From a virus: 24,113 nucleotides of DNA. The stretch lies in IMG/VR virus record IMGVR_UViG_3300032331_002042, positions 1 to 24,113 of that record, one strand, 5' to 3'. The notes beneath the pieces were generated by a model that saw only the letters and a list, made by a program, of their open reading frames with translations, made no database searches and had not been told where the DNA came from. Both the position numbers and the translations under genes were made by a program. Shown here piece by piece: positions 1 through 19,505 of this stretch (within the stretch, counting starts at the first letter, position 1; every line of letters begins with the position of its first letter).

Positions 1-1320
1 GGCAAGGTAGCGTACTTTCAACTGGGTGGCAGCACTTATGTGAATCTGTTGCCTGAGATCATGCCCATACTTGAGAAGTTTGACTATGATGTTGAGCTGG
101 ACGACCAACGGGACTACTCAAACACATTCAACTTTGAACAAGTGACTGAAACAAGTTTTGAACACGTGAAGTGGCCCAAAACACATCCAGCCGCAGGTGA
201 ACCCATTATGTTGCGTGACTATCAAGTGGGGATTGTCAACAACTTTCTGGCCAATCCACAATGCATACAAGAAGTGGCCACAGGTGCAGGCAAGACCATT
301 ATGACAGCAGCCTTGAGCAATGCTGTGGCACCGTATGGACGCTCAATCGTTATTGTGCCCAACAAGAGCTTGGTCACACAGACCGAAGCAGACTACAAGA
401 ACATGCAACAAGATGTTGGTGTGTACTTTGGTGACAGAAAAGAATACGGACGCACCCACACCATTTGCACATGGCAGAGCCTGAACAATCTCTTGAAAAA
501 CACCAAGGCCGGAGTAGGTGACTGCACCATAGGTGAGTTCCTGGAAGATGTGGTGTGTGTTATTGTGGACGAAGTACACATGGCCAAAGCAGATGCACTC
601 AAAACCTTGCTTACAGGTGTAATGGCTAGAGTGCCAATTCGCTGGGGGTTGACAGGAACTGTGCCCAAAGAGAAGTTTGAAAGCCAAGCACTACTGGTCA
701 GCCTTGGACCTGTGATTGGCAAGCTCAGTGCCAGCGAATTACAACAACAAGGTGTATTAGCCAACTGCCATGTCAACATCGTGCAACTGATTGATCATGT
801 GGAGTACAAAGACTATCAGAGCGAACTCAAGTACTTGTTGGAAGAGTCCGGACGACTAGACACCATGGCTGATCTTGTGCGTCAAGTAAACGAAACAGGC
901 AACACTCTTGTGTTGGTAGACCGTACCGAGTGCGGCAGGCAATTGGTTGCAAGACTGGGGGAAAAGGCAGTGTTTGTTTCGGGAGCAACCAAAGGAACAA
1001 AAAGGCAAGCAGAATATGATGAAGTGGCTGATGCAACCGATAAAATTATTGTGGCAACTTATGGCGTGGCTGCCGTGGGTATTAATATTCCTAGGATTTT
1101 TAATCTTGTGCTTGTTGAACCTGGCAAGAGTTTTGTGCGTGTCATCCAGTCAATTGGTCGTGGCATACGCAAAGCAGAAGACAAAGATCATGTTCAAATC
1201 TGGGACGTGACATCAACTTGTAAATTTGCCAAGCGGCACTTGACCAAGCGCAAACAGTTCTATAAAGAAGCCAACTATCCATTCACACAAGAAAAACTGG
1301 ATTGGATGAAAATAGGTTGA
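1..1320 (+). CDS. uvsW: UvsW-like DNA/RNA helicase, 5' partial
   Basis: The reading frame is open from base 1, so the true start lies left of the window; a GTG at 40 is internal. In T4, UvsW is a superfamily 2 helicase that unwinds R-loops and branched DNA, drives branch migration and helps switch the phage from origin-dependent to recombination-dependent replication. Visible motifs, in order: a Q-motif-like RDYQ segment near 217-228, Walker A ATGAGKT (277-297), a DEVH form of the DEAH box (568-579), a GLTGT motif III (near 646-660), and motif VI QSIGRGIR (1147-1170). About 439 residues are present against roughly 500 in T4, so only a short N-terminal part is missing. The next gene starts 33 bp downstream from its own promoter. 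Identification as an SF2 helicase is firm; UvsW in particular rests on the T4-like context and overall resemblance. Confidence 0.85.
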   Translation, partial: GKVAYFQLGGSTYVNLLPEIMPILEKFDYDVELDDQRDYSNTFNFEQVTETSFEHVKWPKTHPAAGEPIMLRDYQVGIVNNFLANPQCIQEVATGAGKTIMTAALSNAVAPYGRSIVIVPNKSLVTQTEADYKNMQQDVGVYFGDRKEYGRTHTICTWQSLNNLLKNTKAGVGDCTIGEFLEDVVCVIVDEVHMAKADALKTLLTGVMARVPIRWGLTGTVPKEKFESQALLVSLGPVIGKLSASELQQQGVLANCHVNIVQLIDHVEYKDYQSELKYLLEESGRLDTMADLVRQVNETGNTLVLVDRTECGRQLVARLGEKAVFVSGATKGTKRQAEYDEVADATDKIIVATYGVAAVGINIPRIFNLVLVEPGKSFVRVIQSIGRGIRKAEDKDHVQIWDVTSTCKFAKRHLTKRKQFYKEANYPFTQEKLDWMKIG

Positions 1321-4876: not shown

Positions 4877-5230
4877 ATGATAGGACACATTAGTCAAACT
4901 GGAAAATACATTGCAGTCACCGGCGGTGCTGGTAGTAATTATATCAACAACAGTAATTACATGGGGGTTGGACAATTACAATACAACACCAGCAATCAAC
5001 GATTAGAACTGTACAACGGCACCAGTTGGCAACCAATTAATCTGGGTCAGTACTATGTTGGACTGACTCCTGATGCTGAACTTTTGCTTGACTGGGTGAG
5101 TAAACGGCGTGATGAAGAAGTAGAAGCTCGACGCCTGGCTGAAGATTATCCTGCTGTGGCAGATGCTTTGGGTGCTGTTCGAGAAGCTGAACAACAATTG
5201 AAAACCATTGTGGCGCTGTGTAGAACATGA
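4877..5230 (+). CDS. Small protein with fibre-type N terminus and helical C terminus, 117 aa
   Basis: ATG one base after the previous stop. The first half is Gly/Asn-rich and contains GQLQYNTSNQRLELYNGTSW, a motif type common in phage fibre and head-fibre proteins (a beta hairpin ending in a tryptophan). The second half is a charged helix, roughly residues 65-117 (DEEVEARRLAEDYPAV and so on), able to form a coiled coil. It may be a small virion decoration or an attachment adaptor. The stop overlaps the start of the next gene (ATGA). Function is inferred only from composition. Confidence 0.6.
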   Translation: MIGHISQTGKYIAVTGGAGSNYINNSNYMGVGQLQYNTSNQRLELYNGTSWQPINLGQYYVGLTPDAELLLDWVSKRRDEEVEARRLAEDYPAVADALGAVREAEQQLKTIVALCRT

Positions 5231-5787
5231 GCGCAGACATTGACATTGATGTCCCGGATCGTAGTCGAATACTAGAACTGATTCGGCACACACCTGCTAG
5301 GCAAGTTGTGGATGGCAAGGTGCGTCGACACAATTCGGGTATCTACATCACAGACATTCCCCAAGATCCCGAACACGGCTGTGCAGCCATAGACTATGAA
5401 ACTGCAGAACAGCGTGGCTACTTCAAAATTGACTTGTTGAACATGAGTGTGTACCAGTTGATCCAGGATCCTGCACACTACGAAGCCATGTTGTCAGCCG
5501 TACCTCCATGGTCGAGGCTGTGGACTGATCGACCCTGGGCCAGTCAGTTGGTACACGTGGGCAATTATTTGGATTTGTTGGCCACAATGCAACCTGACTC
5601 CATACCCAGGATGGCTGCATTTATTAGCATAATTAGACCAGGCAAAGCATATTTGCAGAGAAAGCCCTGGGATCAAGTGTTTGCAGAAGTGTGGGACGGG
5701 GACGAATCGCGTGGGTATACGTTCAAGCGTAGCCACTCAATTTCCTATGCAGCCTTGGTGGCGTTACATATGAATCTTTTGAACTAA
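5227..5787 (+). CDS. Miniature DNA polymerase III alpha (DnaE)-like protein
   Basis: This 186-residue protein lines up, motif by motif and in order, with the catalytic core of C-family DNA polymerases. ADIDID (residues 3-8) matches the PD-x-D-x-D palm motif; D4 and D6 correspond to catalytic D401 and D403 of E. coli. RHNSG (34-38) matches the RHAGG loop. GYFKIDLLNM (64-73) matches GLVKFDFLGL, with D69 at the third catalytic aspartate (D555). IIRPGK (135-140) matches the fingers motif with RPG, and FKRSHSISYAAL (166-177) matches the NKSHAAAYAL motif. The PHP, beta-binding, OB and tau-binding regions are absent; the family norm is about 1,160 residues. It is coupled to the preceding gene by an ATGA overlap. 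It may be a working minimal palm, a regulator, or a non-catalytic relic that is still maintained. Confidence 0.7.
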   Translation: MSADIDIDVPDRSRILELIRHTPARQVVDGKVRRHNSGIYITDIPQDPEHGCAAIDYETAEQRGYFKIDLLNMSVYQLIQDPAHYEAMLSAVPPWSRLWTDRPWASQLVHVGNYLDLLATMQPDSIPRMAAFISIIRPGKAYLQRKPWDQVFAEVWDGDESRGYTFKRSHSISYAALVALHMNLLN

Positions 5788-6165
5788 TTAGTCTATTCTT
5801 CTCACCAAAGTGATGCTCTTTCTTTTGCTCTTTTTGCGAGCAATGTCTATTAGACTGCATACAGGGCCATGTAAGATTTCTAGATCTTTGTTTGAAAACG
5901 TCCTCAAAGTAAACTTGAATCGGTCCCAGTCACTGCGCAGGAATATATTGATGGGTATGCTACGATTGCTCTCCCACCACCAAGTGTTGGCCAATTCCAA
6001 GAATTCCAGCTTGTCTTGTTGTGTGAGCACAGCACCAAAGTCGTAGATGGTTGTGACTGCATCGTCTCTGTTCTGAACTACTCCAATATATTCATTGCTG
6101 GCGTACACGCACAGAGTTATAAAGGGGTATTTTTCAGCCAGTTTTTCAAAGATATTGTTACCCAT
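5788..6165 (-). CDS. Conserved-looking phage protein of unknown function, 125 aa
   Basis: A minus-strand gene whose stop abuts the stop of the DnaE-like gene. The product begins MGNNIFEKLAEKYPFITLCVYA and contains LELANTWWWESNRSIPINIFL and LEILHGPVCSLIDIARKKSKRKS. It is dense in aromatic residues with a basic C-terminal tail. I recall very similar proteins in environmental T4-like phages, always uncharacterised. There is no membrane segment or catalytic motif. The basic tail could bind nucleic acid. Its start codon lies inside the late promoter of the divergent gene at 6186, so strong late transcription there could affect its own expression. Confidence 0.75.
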   Translation of the reverse strand: MGNNIFEKLAEKYPFITLCVYASNEYIGVVQNRDDAVTTIYDFGAVLTQQDKLEFLELANTWWWESNRSIPINIFLRSDWDRFKFTLRTFSNKDLEILHGPVCSLIDIARKKSKRKSITLVRRID

Positions 6166-7303: not shown

Positions 7304-8293
7304 ATGCTTGACATCCTTGCTTATCTACCTGCAAAAAAGAAACAGACACCTAGTGGTTGGTTGAGTTTCAATGCAGTGTGTTGTCAGCACAACGGATCAA
7401 CACAGGACCGGCGAGGACGTGGCGGACTCAAAGCCAGTGATCAGGGCTGGAGTTATCACTGTTTCAATTGCTCATACACAGCCAGTTTTATATTAGGACG
7501 CAATGTAAGTTATAAAGCACGAAAGCTCTTGGGTTGGATGGGTGTGCCAGAAGTAGAAATAGAGATGTTGAATCTTGAAAGTCTGCGTCACAAAAACATA
7601 CATGGTATACTCAGCGAACGGCAGCAAGTTTGGAATGCCATTAGCGATATCAAATTTGAAGAGTTTGATGAGTTGCCACCGTTTGCAGAATTGGTCACAC
7701 CTGAACTACAATCTCAATGGGACTACTTGCGTTCAAGAAAGGTACCCGCGGACTTTCCTGTGCTCACAGCCGCACAAAATGATGGTGTCCACTGGACTCG
7801 TCCACAGGTCATCATACCATTTACCTACAACAACGTCATGGTGGGTTGGACTGCCAGAATGTTGGATGGAAAACAGCCCAAGTTCATCAGCCATACACAA
7901 CCTGGTTATGTGTTTGGCACTGACCTACAGCATGGCGATTGGCAACATGTGATTGTGACAGAAGGCATATTTGATGCACTCAGCATTGGCGGACTTGCTG
8001 TGATGCACAACACCATAAGTGATCTACAAGCAAGACTGATACGCAGCCTGGGACGAGATATAATTGTAGTACCAGATCAAGATCAGGCAGGTGTTGCCTT
8101 GATTGACCGTGCTGTGGAACTGGGCTGGGCAGTGAGCATACCTGACTGGCCCGAGGGATGTAAAGACGTCAATGATGCAGTAATACAATTAGGCCAACTT
8201 GGAGCCTTGCTAACTATAATGCAATCACGAGAGACCAGTAAAATCAAAATTGAGTTAAGGAAAAAAGCACTTGTTAAAAGAATACGGACTTGA
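7304..8293 (+). CDS. 61: DnaG-type DNA primase (gp61-like)
   Basis: Makes RNA primers for lagging-strand synthesis together with the adjacent gp41-type helicase. An N-terminal zinc-ribbon has C26-x2-H29 and C53-x2-C56 (HCFNC). The TOPRIM domain follows: the glutamate motif VIVTEGIFDAL with E220, then IIVVPDQDQAG with D258 and D260, which bind the catalytic metal. KDVNDAV (287-293) is the usual last TOPRIM-region motif. The length (329 aa) fits T4 gp61 (342 aa). The ATG at 7304 lies right after a sigma70-type -10 box, suggesting leaderless translation. The 3' end overlaps the helicase start by 23 bp, as expected for partners of one primosome. Confidence 0.9.
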   Translation: MLDILAYLPAKKKQTPSGWLSFNAVCCQHNGSTQDRRGRGGLKASDQGWSYHCFNCSYTASFILGRNVSYKARKLLGWMGVPEVEIEMLNLESLRHKNIHGILSERQQVWNAISDIKFEEFDELPPFAELVTPELQSQWDYLRSRKVPADFPVLTAAQNDGVHWTRPQVIIPFTYNNVMVGWTARMLDGKQPKFISHTQPGYVFGTDLQHGDWQHVIVTEGIFDALSIGGLAVMHNTISDLQARLIRSLGRDIIVVPDQDQAGVALIDRAVELGWAVSIPDWPEGCKDVNDAVIQLGQLGALLTIMQSRETSKIKIELRKKALVKRIRT

Positions 8294-9689
8294 CGTTCAA
8301 AGATTATTTTTAGAAATGATGTTGGAAGATGCACAGAGCTATGTGCGTGTGCAGAACATCTACAACCCGCAGAACTTTGACAAAAGTTTACGAGCCGCGG
8401 CCGAGTTCATCAAAGAACACTCAGACAAGCACAAGACTCTGCCAGACCGCATGCAGATCAGTGCAACCACAGGCATCAAACTACAAGCAGTGCCTGATCT
8501 AAACGAAGGTCACTTTGACTGGTTCATGGGCGAGTTTGAACAGTTTACCAAGCGCCAAGAACTGGAACGTGCTATTTTAAAAGCCGCAGACATGCTGGAA
8601 AAGGGCGACTTTGAACCTGTGGAGAAACTGATCAAAGATGCTGTACAGATCAGTTTGACCAAGGACATGGGCACAGACTACTTTAGTGATCCTAAGGCAC
8701 GTATTGAAAAGTATTTCAACTCAGGCGGACAAGTGTCGACAGGCTGGCCACAACTGGATCGACTGCTGTATGGTGGCTTCAGTAGAGGTGAACTCAACAT
8801 CTTTGCCGGCGGATCCGGATCGGGCAAAAGTCTTGTGATGATGAACATTGCGCTGAATTGGTTGCAACAAGGACTCAGTGGCGTGTACATCACACTGGAA
8901 CTGAGTGAAGAACTCACAAGTTTGCGAACTGATGCTATGTTGACCAACATGAGCACCAAGGACATTCGCAAGGATATTGACACCACAGAACTCAAGGTCA
9001 AACTGGTGGCCAAAAAGTCGGGCAACTATCAAGTCAAAGGCCTGCCAGCACAAAGCAACATCAACGACATACGTGCGTACCTGAAAGAGTATCAAATTCA
9101 AACAGGTAAACGAGTAGACTTTGTGATGATTGACTATTTGGACTTGCTGATGCCTGTCTCTGCAAAAGTTTCGCCCAATGACTTGTTTGTGAAAGACAAA
9201 TACGTGTCGGAAGAACTGCGTAACTTGGCCAAAGAACTTGGGTTCCTAATGGTCACAGCGAGTCAGTTGAATCGATCGGCTGTGGAAGAAATTGAATTTG
9301 ATCACAGCCATATTTCAGGTGGTATATCTAAAATCAACACAGCAGACAATGTGTTTGGTATCTTTACTTCACGTGCCATGAAAGAGCGTGGCAAATATCA
9401 GATACAATGTATGAAGTCTCGAAGCTCGACCGGCGTTGGTCAAAAGATTGATTTGGAGTACAACATTGAAACAATGCGCATTACTGATGAAGGCGGAGAA
9501 GATGGAGACACTTATTCGAAGAAACCATCTGTATCCATCATGGACTCAATCAAGGCCCGCAGTCAAGTTAGCCCGGCTAGTGATGACGCAAACAGCCCTC
9601 CGTGGGACAGTGCGGAGCCTGTCAAAGTCACAGCAGACGTTCAAAGTGCCAAACTAAAACAACTGCTGGGCAAGATCAAAACTGGTTAA
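8271..9689 (+). CDS. 41: Replicative DNA helicase (gp41/DnaB family)
   Basis: A hexameric 5'-3' helicase that opens the fork and binds the primase. The 472-residue product has a helical N-terminal domain (about 1-130) and a RecA-type core: Walker A GGSGSGKS (180-187), an E-containing ITLELS segment (207-212), Walker B VDFVMIDYLDLL with D288, and the SQLNR motif (331-335). The last 60 residues are a low-complexity acidic/serine-rich tail ending in KLKQLLGKIKTG. Length matches T4 gp41 (475 aa). It starts with TTG at 8271, preceded by TAAGGA at 8255-8260, inside the primase gene. The stop codon is shared palindromically with the convergent tail-fibre gene. Confidence 0.9.
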   Translation: MLKEYGLDVQRLFLEMMLEDAQSYVRVQNIYNPQNFDKSLRAAAEFIKEHSDKHKTLPDRMQISATTGIKLQAVPDLNEGHFDWFMGEFEQFTKRQELERAILKAADMLEKGDFEPVEKLIKDAVQISLTKDMGTDYFSDPKARIEKYFNSGGQVSTGWPQLDRLLYGGFSRGELNIFAGGSGSGKSLVMMNIALNWLQQGLSGVYITLELSEELTSLRTDAMLTNMSTKDIRKDIDTTELKVKLVAKKSGNYQVKGLPAQSNINDIRAYLKEYQIQTGKRVDFVMIDYLDLLMPVSAKVSPNDLFVKDKYVSEELRNLAKELGFLMVTASQLNRSAVEEIEFDHSHISGGISKINTADNVFGIFTSRAMKERGKYQIQCMKSRSSTGVGQKIDLEYNIETMRITDEGGEDGDTYSKKPSVSIMDSIKARSQVSPASDDANSPPWDSAEPVKVTADVQSAKLKQLLGKIKTG

Positions 9690-17047: not shown

Positions 17048-17425
17048 ATGGCTTATTCAGAAAAAGTAATTGATCATTATGAAAATCCACGTAACGTGGG
17101 CAAGTTTGAAATTGATGACACCATTGGTACAGGCATGGTGGGAGCACCTGCATGTGGCGATGTGATGAAATTGCAGATCAAAGTTGAAGATGGAATTATA
17201 ACAGATGCTAGGTTCAAAACATACGGATGCGGAAGTGCGATTGCCTCATCCTCTCTTGTTACCGAGTGGGTTAAAGGACGAACGCTTGACCAGGCCGCAG
17301 CTCTTAAAAATTCAGAGATTGCTCAGGAACTCGCACTGCCACCAGTCAAGATTCATTGTTCTATTCTTGCTGAAGATGCTATACGAGCAGCCGTAGAAGA
17401 CTATCGTAAAAAACATGCCGTATGA
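17048..17425 (+). CDS. iscU: IscU Fe-S cluster scaffold protein
   Basis: Scaffold on which cysteine desulfurase (IscS, presumably the host's) builds [2Fe-2S] clusters before transfer. The 125-residue product keeps every key residue: C36 and D38 in GAPACGD, C61 in YGCGSAIASSS, and C104 in KIHCSILAED. It also has LPPVK (97-101), the motif bound by the HscA chaperone. The sequence is very close, from memory, to cellular beta/gammaproteobacterial IscU, pointing to acquisition from such a host and retention under strong selection. It starts an operon from a perfect sigma70 promoter and overlaps the radical SAM gene by ATGA. No desulfurase, HscA/HscB or ferredoxin gene is present nearby, so it must work with host partners. 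Confidence 0.96.
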   Translation: MAYSEKVIDHYENPRNVGKFEIDDTIGTGMVGAPACGDVMKLQIKVEDGIITDARFKTYGCGSAIASSSLVTEWVKGRTLDQAAALKNSEIAQELALPPVKIHCSILAEDAIRAAVEDYRKKHAV

Positions 17426-19185
17426 GTTTGTACAATGTGTCTGATGGTTCTGCCAGCTCTGAACTGAGCAAGCATGACAGCAATGCTGTTACCGTTCCAG
17501 TTGACCAAAAATTTAGAATTTTATTTTATCATGCTGGATTTGCCAAAGATGGTTGGATCTACACAGCAGCTTTGCAATTAAAAACACACATTGACTTGAA
17601 CTATCCAGAACTGGCCGACCAACTGGAATGGTTAGTTCCACTGCAGATGAGAGTCAGTGACGATAAATTGTTGGAACATGTTCAACAAACTCGGGCTGAC
17701 GTGTTGTGCACCGGACACTATGTGTGGAATCATGAATTTATAATTGATCAATTGGCAGCAGTTAAATCAAGATTGCCTGCCCATCTAAAAGTCATCAGTG
17801 GTGGGCCCAGTATCAATATCAATATTGAATCAGATTTTTTTGATCGTTATCCCTATATTGATTTTGCAGTGTATGGAGCCGGCGAACAGGCCTTTGCAGA
17901 CATCATGACTCATTTGGTTTTGCATCGACCCTTGATAACCATGACTGCCAGCAACTGTGGATGGAAGCATCGTGAAACTGGTAAGACTGTGGTGGCACCA
18001 CACAAATATGTCAAAATGATACAGACCAGTCCGTTTTTGCACAATCAAAAATTGTTCACCGCCATGGTAAAAAACTTGGTAAAACTAGGCACAACTCAGC
18101 TACAGTTGGGCTACACAGTCACTCGCGGATGCCCTTACAAGTGTACATTTTGTGACTGGAACAGTGGGTTTGATACCAAGGTCACACGCAGAAAAGGCAG
18201 CTATCGAGAAGAGATTGATTTGTTTCAGCGGCTGAAGATTCGCACCATCATGTGGTCAGATGCCAATTTTGGACAGTACGATGAGGATGTAGAAATCGCC
18301 GAGTACATGGCACACAAAAATATCAATGAAGATGCTGGTTTTACTATTATGTCTGGCAACTTTAGTAAGTTAAAAAAAGCCACCAATTTAAAAATATTTC
18401 ACATCATGATAGCCAGTCGACTGGTCAAGAATTTATTGGCACTGTCAATACAAGATACCAATCAGCAAGTGCTGGAAAATATCAACCGACCCGATGTGGG
18501 TTGGGAAGTACATGCTGGCATGGTTGATGAGTTGTATGTGGCCTGGCCTCACCTGGTGATAGCAGCTCAATTGATTTATGGCTTGCCTGGGCAAACCACA
18601 GACTCGTGGCGCCAAACTCTAGCACAGATAACTGGTAAAAACCTGCTGCCTCAAATTTACACCAATGTGCCACTGCCGGCCAGTCCGGCCATGTATGATT
18701 CTGAGTATCAGGCCAAGTGGCAGTTTGAATATGCACCTGGCCTCAAAATGGGAGATTTTGCCCAAACCAGTTACCGCGATCTCATACCAAAACAGTGTGT
18801 GAGTTTTGATCAATGGAACATGGTTGAAATGCACACCTTGTCCTGTGTGTATTCAGGCCTGGCATTGATAAAAATTTATGTTTGGAAACAATTTGATATT
18901 GTGCTGGACATTGATGTCATAGCAGATGCATTTGCTACTGAATCCTGGTATCAAGATTTACAACAACAATTGTATCGCAATTGGACTCAAAATCAAAATT
19001 ATTTTTACGTGATACAGGATACCCAATTTACTGAGCCTTTGCATTTTGGATTCCATTTAGCCACCAGCAAAGATCTTTTCCAATATGTGTACCAACATTT
19101 GTCAACAGAATTACAACATGAATTTGATAAAGACGATGTACAAGCTGATTTGACTGACTGGTGTTACAAATTGGTTGCATCATGA
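17422..19185 (+). CDS. B12-binding-type radical SAM protein
   Basis: A 587-residue protein in which residues about 30-165 resemble a cobalamin-binding Rossmann domain (VISGGPS at 124-130, YGAGE at 151-155). It lacks the DxHxxG histidine motif, as do many radical SAM members of this group. The radical SAM core follows with RGCPYKCTFCD, where C237, C241 and C244 bind the [4Fe-4S] cluster that cleaves S-adenosylmethionine, and a later IYGLPGQT segment (385-392). The last 170 residues are unlike anything I know. Such enzymes do methylations, ring closures or other radical chemistry on nucleic acids, lipids or peptides; the substrate is open. It sits between iscU and iscA with ATGA overlaps on both sides, which suggests that the flanking genes supply its cluster. 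Confidence 0.85.
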   Translation: MSLYNVSDGSASSELSKHDSNAVTVPVDQKFRILFYHAGFAKDGWIYTAALQLKTHIDLNYPELADQLEWLVPLQMRVSDDKLLEHVQQTRADVLCTGHYVWNHEFIIDQLAAVKSRLPAHLKVISGGPSININIESDFFDRYPYIDFAVYGAGEQAFADIMTHLVLHRPLITMTASNCGWKHRETGKTVVAPHKYVKMIQTSPFLHNQKLFTAMVKNLVKLGTTQLQLGYTVTRGCPYKCTFCDWNSGFDTKVTRRKGSYREEIDLFQRLKIRTIMWSDANFGQYDEDVEIAEYMAHKNINEDAGFTIMSGNFSKLKKATNLKIFHIMIASRLVKNLLALSIQDTNQQVLENINRPDVGWEVHAGMVDELYVAWPHLVIAAQLIYGLPGQTTDSWRQTLAQITGKNLLPQIYTNVPLPASPAMYDSEYQAKWQFEYAPGLKMGDFAQTSYRDLIPKQCVSFDQWNMVEMHTLSCVYSGLALIKIYVWKQFDIVLDIDVIADAFATESWYQDLQQQLYRNWTQNQNYFYVIQDTQFTEPLHFGFHLATSKDLFQYVYQHLSTELQHEFDKDDVQADLTDWCYKLVAS

Positions 19186-19505
19186 TTACATTGACTGATC
19201 TTGCACGAACAAAAATACAAAAATTGGTCCAAACCAAAGGCTATGCTGGCATCCGCCTGGGTGTTAAAACTACAGGTTGCTCTGGCTTGGCTTATGTGTT
19301 AGAATATGTCAAAGAGTACACGCCAGACGACAGCACCATAAACTATGCACAAAATGATTTTTGTGTGATAGTGGACAAAAAACACGATGTGTACCTGCGT
19401 GGAATGCAAGTAGACTATGTACGGCAAGGACTTAACGAAGGCTTTGAATTCACCAACCCCAATGAACGTGACCGCTGCGGTTGCGGAGAAAGTTTTAGAG
19501 TTTAA
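19182..19505 (+). CDS. iscA: IscA/ErpA-type Fe-S carrier protein
   Basis: An A-type carrier of 107 residues that accepts clusters from IscU and passes them to target enzymes. Start at the ATG at 19182, in an ATGA overlap with the radical SAM stop. The three ligand cysteines are present: one in TTGCSGLAYVLEY, and two in the C-terminal CGCGESF. IscA/HesB-like genes are known in T4-like cyanophages. Being next to IscU and a radical SAM enzyme is more specific than the usual lone phage copy. The subgroup (IscA, SufA or ErpA) cannot be decided by eye. Confidence 0.93.
   Translation: MITLTDLARTKIQKLVQTKGYAGIRLGVKTTGCSGLAYVLEYVKEYTPDDSTINYAQNDFCVIVDKKHDVYLRGMQVDYVRQGLNEGFEFTNPNERDRCGCGESFRV

Follow-up and report, generated by a model that had tools for sequence, protein, structure and literature searches.

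A split, minimal form of the DNA polymerase III (Pol III) alpha subunit has already been described in the RaK2-type (group 2.2) jumbo phages by Iyer et al. 2021 (PMC7824862, section 3.4.1), who found that it accompanies a family B polymerase and that it consists of two units encoded by distant genes, the N-terminal one binding NTP and the C-terminal one binding metal and template. We identified these units with the families phrog_11127 (N-unit, here the N-half) and phrog_11778 (C-unit, here the C-half). The paper on phage CBB reports a truncated alpha of 172 aa, which is the N-half (PMC5259590), an alpha subunit is listed in the Atu_ph07 paper (PMC6102473), and a recent record of phage Phosso names the C-half ‘DnaE-like DNA polymerase III alpha’. 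A search of the literature found no experiment or biochemical test of the split polymerase. The bacterial DnaE and PolC enzymes (PDB 2hnh, 2hpi/3e0d, 5lew and 3f2b) share with the C-half the fold of palm and fingers, the catalytic aspartates and the RPG and KSH motifs, and with its partner the GRGSS motif. However, they are single chains of about 1000 aa or more with PHP, thumb, HhH/clamp-binding, OB and tau parts, whereas the phage enzyme is made of two chains, of about 170 and 186 aa, without any of these. The family B polymerase of the T4 gp43 type belongs to an unrelated family, yet it occurs in the same genomes as the split halves and is the expected main replicase.

We analyzed a 24,113-nucleotide stretch of viral DNA, hereafter the window (IMG/VR record IMGVR_UViG_3300032331_002042), in which an original prediction had singled out one open reading frame as a miniature DnaE-like polymerase. 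The frame has the position and length that had been given for it (Table 1) and is a genuine conserved gene. Relatives were found in 63 isolate phage records and in at least 594 IMG/VR stretches, and purifying selection on the C-half is strong (median dN/dS of 0.09 in comparisons with 64 close relatives). The window C-half and its close relatives (78–94% identity) form an uncultured group that is 26–42% identical to the isolate phages. Because Iyer et al. 2021 had already described the split enzyme, the window protein is a further member of it, differing only in its uncultured lineage; what is added here to that description is the cut site, the residue invariance and the co-occurrence counts. 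For the same reason, a C-family core in a T4-like phage is not the surprise that the original prediction took it for.

Table 1. Features of the window, with positions counted from its first nucleotide.
Feature	Position	Strand	Remarks
UvsW-like helicase, start of cassette	40..1320	+	family match and synteny
Small upstream gene, overlapping the C-half start by ATGA	4877..5230	+	virion protein annotation in the RaK2/GAP32 counterpart
C-terminal half of split minimal C-family (Pol III alpha) polymerase	5227..5787	+	186 aa, ATG start, phrog_11778
D4-I-D6-I-D8 codons	5236..5250	+	in alignment D4 and D6 fall on D401 and D403, the catalytic pair of E. coli alpha (PDFDVD)
H35-x-x-G38 (DnaE: H-x-x-G-V-V-I)	5329..5340	+	invariant; aligns with HAAGVVI of bacterial DnaE
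K67-x-D69 with the third catalytic aspartate (DnaE: KFDFL; D555 of E. coli)	5425..5433	+	invariant; hhalign to DnaE VKFDFLG
R137-P138-G-K140, reduced fingers	5635..5646	+	R, P and K invariant; aligns with DnaE RPG
F166-K-R-S-H170-x-x-x-Y174, reduced fingers	5722..5748	+	aligns with FNKSHAxxY of DnaE
Small convergent gene directly downstream of the C-half	5788..6165	-	phrog_11637
DnaG-type (Toprim) primase, conserved replication cassette	7304..8293	+	family match and synteny
DnaB-like (T4 gp41-type) replicative helicase	8271..9689	+	family match and synteny
NifU_N/IscU scaffold	17048-17425		
B12-binding radical SAM protein	17422-19185		
IscA-type Fe-S protein	19161-19505		

The T4-like replication neighborhood that had been proposed around the gene was borne out; the cassette includes a primase and two helicases. 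The order uvsW, small genes, C-half, convergent small gene, structural gene, primase and DnaB-like helicase is common to RaK2, GAP32, PA5oct, Phosso and Atu_ph07, and the window's phrog_11778 unit sits at a conserved replication locus syntenic with these and other phages; elsewhere the order is kept more loosely. Relatives likewise carry a small gene just upstream of the C-half, and nearly all of them have a small convergent gene adjoining it.

Single-sequence searches of Pfam and the PDB with the C-half returned nothing useful. On the other hand, PHROG 11778 (‘DNA polymerase’) matched its residues 3–185 with E=3e-50, and hhalign against full-length bacterial DnaE gave E=4e-5 over a span that includes H-x-x-G, K-x-D and RPG. 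A profile built from eight C-half relatives matched the DnaE chains of the PDB weakly (E 0.04–0.1), and in a profile alignment D4-I-D6-I-D8 fell on PDIDID of M. tuberculosis DnaE1. The top PDB profile match, a tRNA hydroxylase (E=0.017), was absent from the structure matches and was rejected. The AlphaFold2 model of the C-half (pLDDT 93.9, pTM 0.82) was aligned by VIA-align over its full length to fifteen DnaE/PolC entries, with Z 6.0–9.5 over 178–185 residues and rmsd 3.1–4.3; the best unrelated chain reached Z 3.2. The score was 9.5 for Taq alpha 460–833 and for PolC 970–1291, and 7.9 for E. coli alpha 399–776. The model thus matches the palm and fingers fold of the C-family, for the part of the palm that the C-half holds, and family and structure searches gave no link of the window protein to T4 gp43. 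The 186-aa protein is a homolog of the polymerase core of the C-family (DnaE/PolC).

Conservation was examined in 105 C-half representatives that are less than 90% identical to one another. Residues D4, D6, D8, H35, G38, P45, K67, D69, L71, I136, R137, P138, K140 and H170 were invariant in 105/105, and in F166-K-R-S-H170-x-x-x-Y174 the F, K and Y were each kept in at least 98%. The sampling relied partly on peptide patterns that hold two of the motifs and is biased to that extent; relatives from isolate phages collected by tblastn, free of any pattern, agree on the conserved residues. All motifs that the original prediction had named are present (ADIDIDV with D4 and D6, R34-H35-x-x-G38, K67-x-D69-x-L71, RPG at 137–139 and KRSHxxxY), and the phrog_11778 match, the hundreds of relatives and the invariant residues place them beyond chance. 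Two checks that it had proposed, the comparison of the predicted fold with DnaE/PolC and the survey of D4, D6 and D69 in relatives, gave results in favor of its assignment of the protein to the C-family.

The 186-aa protein lacks the GRGS nucleotide-binding motif, which in relatives is invariant in a separate protein, the N-half, and conserved there as strictly as the three aspartates of the C-half. This indicates that the window protein is half of a C-family core and not the whole. A search of nine related genomes with PF07733 and phrog_405 revealed a separate second ORF of about 170–180 aa that matches the segment of DnaE just before D-x-D and ends in GVGRGSSVASY...YDLDxxEFL(K/R) followed by the stop. 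It corresponds to phrog_11127, in which 65/65 members match PF07733. Comparison of the N-half by hhalign gave E=2e-5, and its profile aligns with residues 380–455 of Taq alpha, 335–407 of M. tuberculosis DnaE1 and 321–393 of E. coli alpha (sequence index). Its AF2 model (pLDDT 88.4) gave Z 11.6 to M. tuberculosis DnaE1 307–413, the best unrelated chain reaching 2.2, and also aligned with E. coli alpha 279–393, Taq 295–455 and PolC 825–965. The C-half model starts at E. coli 399, Taq 460, M. tuberculosis 418 and PolC 970, and the two ranges abut in every DnaE/PolC chain with a gap of 4–6 residues. These complementary ranges place the cut within the short linker that joins ‘ERFLN’ to ‘PDFDID’, which reads ERFLNPERVSMPDFDID in a bacterial DnaE. 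The cut leaves the nucleotide-binding loop in the N-half protein and all metal ligands in the C-half protein. The window protein begins right at D-x-D because, in relatives, the part of the palm that comes before it and contains GRGSS has its own gene elsewhere in the genome, and the self-contained miniature polymerase that had been put forward does not hold. Two further phage families of about 460 aa, phrog_13169 and phrog_7513, have their match to the N-half close to the C-terminus, a hint that a similar cut site may occur in other phage Pol III alphas.

The two halves occur together. BLAST detected the N-half in 60 of the 63 phage records with a C-half, and all 60 N-half records fall among these 63. 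The three exceptions are one 109-kb fragment and two sister Alishewanella phages; in the one sister that the profile search covered, a divergent N-half was recovered (E=4e-15). In large IMG/VR records searched with both profiles the C-half was present in 15/15 and the N-half in 13/15. Six of these 15 had been selected solely for their N-half, and the C-half was present in each of the six; the two without the N-half (221 and 262 kb, the usual size being 290–365 kb) may be incomplete. The distance between the halves ranged from about 11 to 256 kb in the records compared. The halves were never found in one ORF or in one locus of up to 20 kb, no operon joins them, and a search of 264 loci, together with three contigs binned with cellular genomes, showed no fused version; one of the three contigs carried an ordinary full-length DnaE. 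The C-half also appeared in contigs filed under Natrialbaceae and Pacearchaeota metagenome-assembled genomes (L295:1704-2237 and L296:10001-10519), which are probably mis-binned phage contigs. Neither an N-half nor a family B polymerase gene lies within the window. Near relatives G001 and G004, whose C-halves are 79 and 90% identical to that of the window, do have the N-half (in G001 at 83756-84268); the window phage's own copy is not visible because the record is only a 24-kb fragment. Both halves are also present in the E. coli phages Sharanji (on K-12 MG1655), 121Q and PBECO4; in RaK2 the C-half is YP_007007279 and the N-half YP_007007317.

The split enzyme is strongly reduced. The spacing from D-x-D to H-x-x-G falls from 112 residues in bacterial DnaE to 31 in the C-half, and that from RPG to F-x-K-S-H from about 109 to 29. 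With residues 493–574 taken as the thumb of Taq alpha, the first of these losses is the thumb. The index-finger segment of DnaE (YQEQ...AMGKK) is missing as well, and with both this segment and the thumb gone, activity is not guaranteed. The original prediction was right about the loss of the PHP, clamp-binding, OB and tau parts; its list omitted GRGSS, the first part of the palm and the thumb. A search for the PHP and HhH domains (PF02811, PF14579) was positive in control bacteria and negative in the genomes or contigs of 15 relatives, and a search for a third fragment with PHP, clamp-binding or finger domains found none, bar one 557-aa ORF in one contig (IMGVR_UViG_3300023174_005338, L299:5750-7423). 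There, an unsplit DnaE core without PHP, which has the GS motif, D-x-D, a longer segment after D-x-D and fingers, is encoded in addition to both split halves.

A family B polymerase (PF00136) was detected in 14 of the 15 relatives tested; G001 has one and the 213-kb contig G004 does not. Published annotations of RaK2 and CBB agree that a family B polymerase is present (CBB: PMC5259590). An epsilon-like proofreading partner was considered as well: PF00929 occurs in RaK2-type phages and was undetected in 8/9 uncultured relatives tested, so that such a partner is not obligate. In some relatives a DnaQ/epsilon-like exonuclease is encoded a few kilobases from the C-half (L289:5865-6458; NC_019526 109954-110460).

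We conclude, with a probability of roughly 0.85, that the window protein is the C-terminal half of a two-gene, phage-specific minimal Pol III alpha core whose halves most likely dock and would act as an accessory polymerase. The N-half (about 170 aa) would supply the first helices of the palm and, in GRGSS, the loop in which the incoming nucleotide is held, and the C-half would supply the metal-binding D4, D6 and D69, the remaining palm β-strands and the shortened fingers. Docking of the two would restore one Pol-β-type palm in trans. We infer that such an assembly, without clamp-binding, PHP, thumb, OB and tau parts of its own, would act as a short-range, low-processivity polymerase. Its accessory role is a guess, in which it might extend primers or repair gaps near the primase-helicase encoded beside the C-half, while bulk replication would be left to the family B gp43-like enzyme. 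A more specific proposal, that the halves form a working C-family polymerase of about 360 residues that extends primers between the phage primase and the family B replicase, a role likened to that of eukaryotic Pol α, is tentative and, in our estimate, rather doubtful. If it were true, the pair would be the smallest working C-family core that we know of, and one split by nature. Among jumbo phages the split minimal Pol III alpha is common, and its conservation is strict. If active, it would define a very small C-family polymerase core and give these phages a two-polymerase system; if inactive, the invariance of both half-sites would need explaining.

The alternative that survives best is that the split core no longer polymerizes and serves as a related nucleotidyltransferase, or as a nucleotide- or metal-binding regulator of the replisome, with primers or the family B polymerase as examples of what it might act on. 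The lost thumb, clamp-binding, OB and tau parts, the contracted RPG–KSH region, and the fact that these phages have both a primase and a polymerase of family B are all consistent with it. However, the C-family finger motifs (RP and FK-x-x-H...Y) are retained along with the metal ligands, and we regard this alternative as unlikely. It is much less probable still that the 186-aa protein functions without a partner, whether as a minimal polymerase or as a terminal transferase: it has the three catalytic aspartates and is predicted to fold confidently by itself, but the GRGSS loop and the first palm helices reside in the separate, co-occurring gene, whose GRGS is equally strictly conserved. The least probable reading, that the protein is a decoy or a host-factor-binding remnant without catalysis, as the original prediction had also suggested, would suit its small size and lost accessory domains, but the low dN/dS speaks against it, as do the active-site residues of the two halves, which are invariant in jumbo phages that infect many hosts, and the parts that would bind the host clamp and tau are the very ones missing.

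Two other regions of the window deserve mention. Between uvsW and the polymerase half (1354-2815) lie a PLP-dependent aminotransferase-like ORF, recognized by reading alone and without a Pfam match, and then a weakly PhyH-like dioxygenase; the isolate phages examined have no annotation of either type at the corresponding place. Further downstream, at 17048-19505, three adjacent iron-sulphur genes are encoded in this phage (Table 1).
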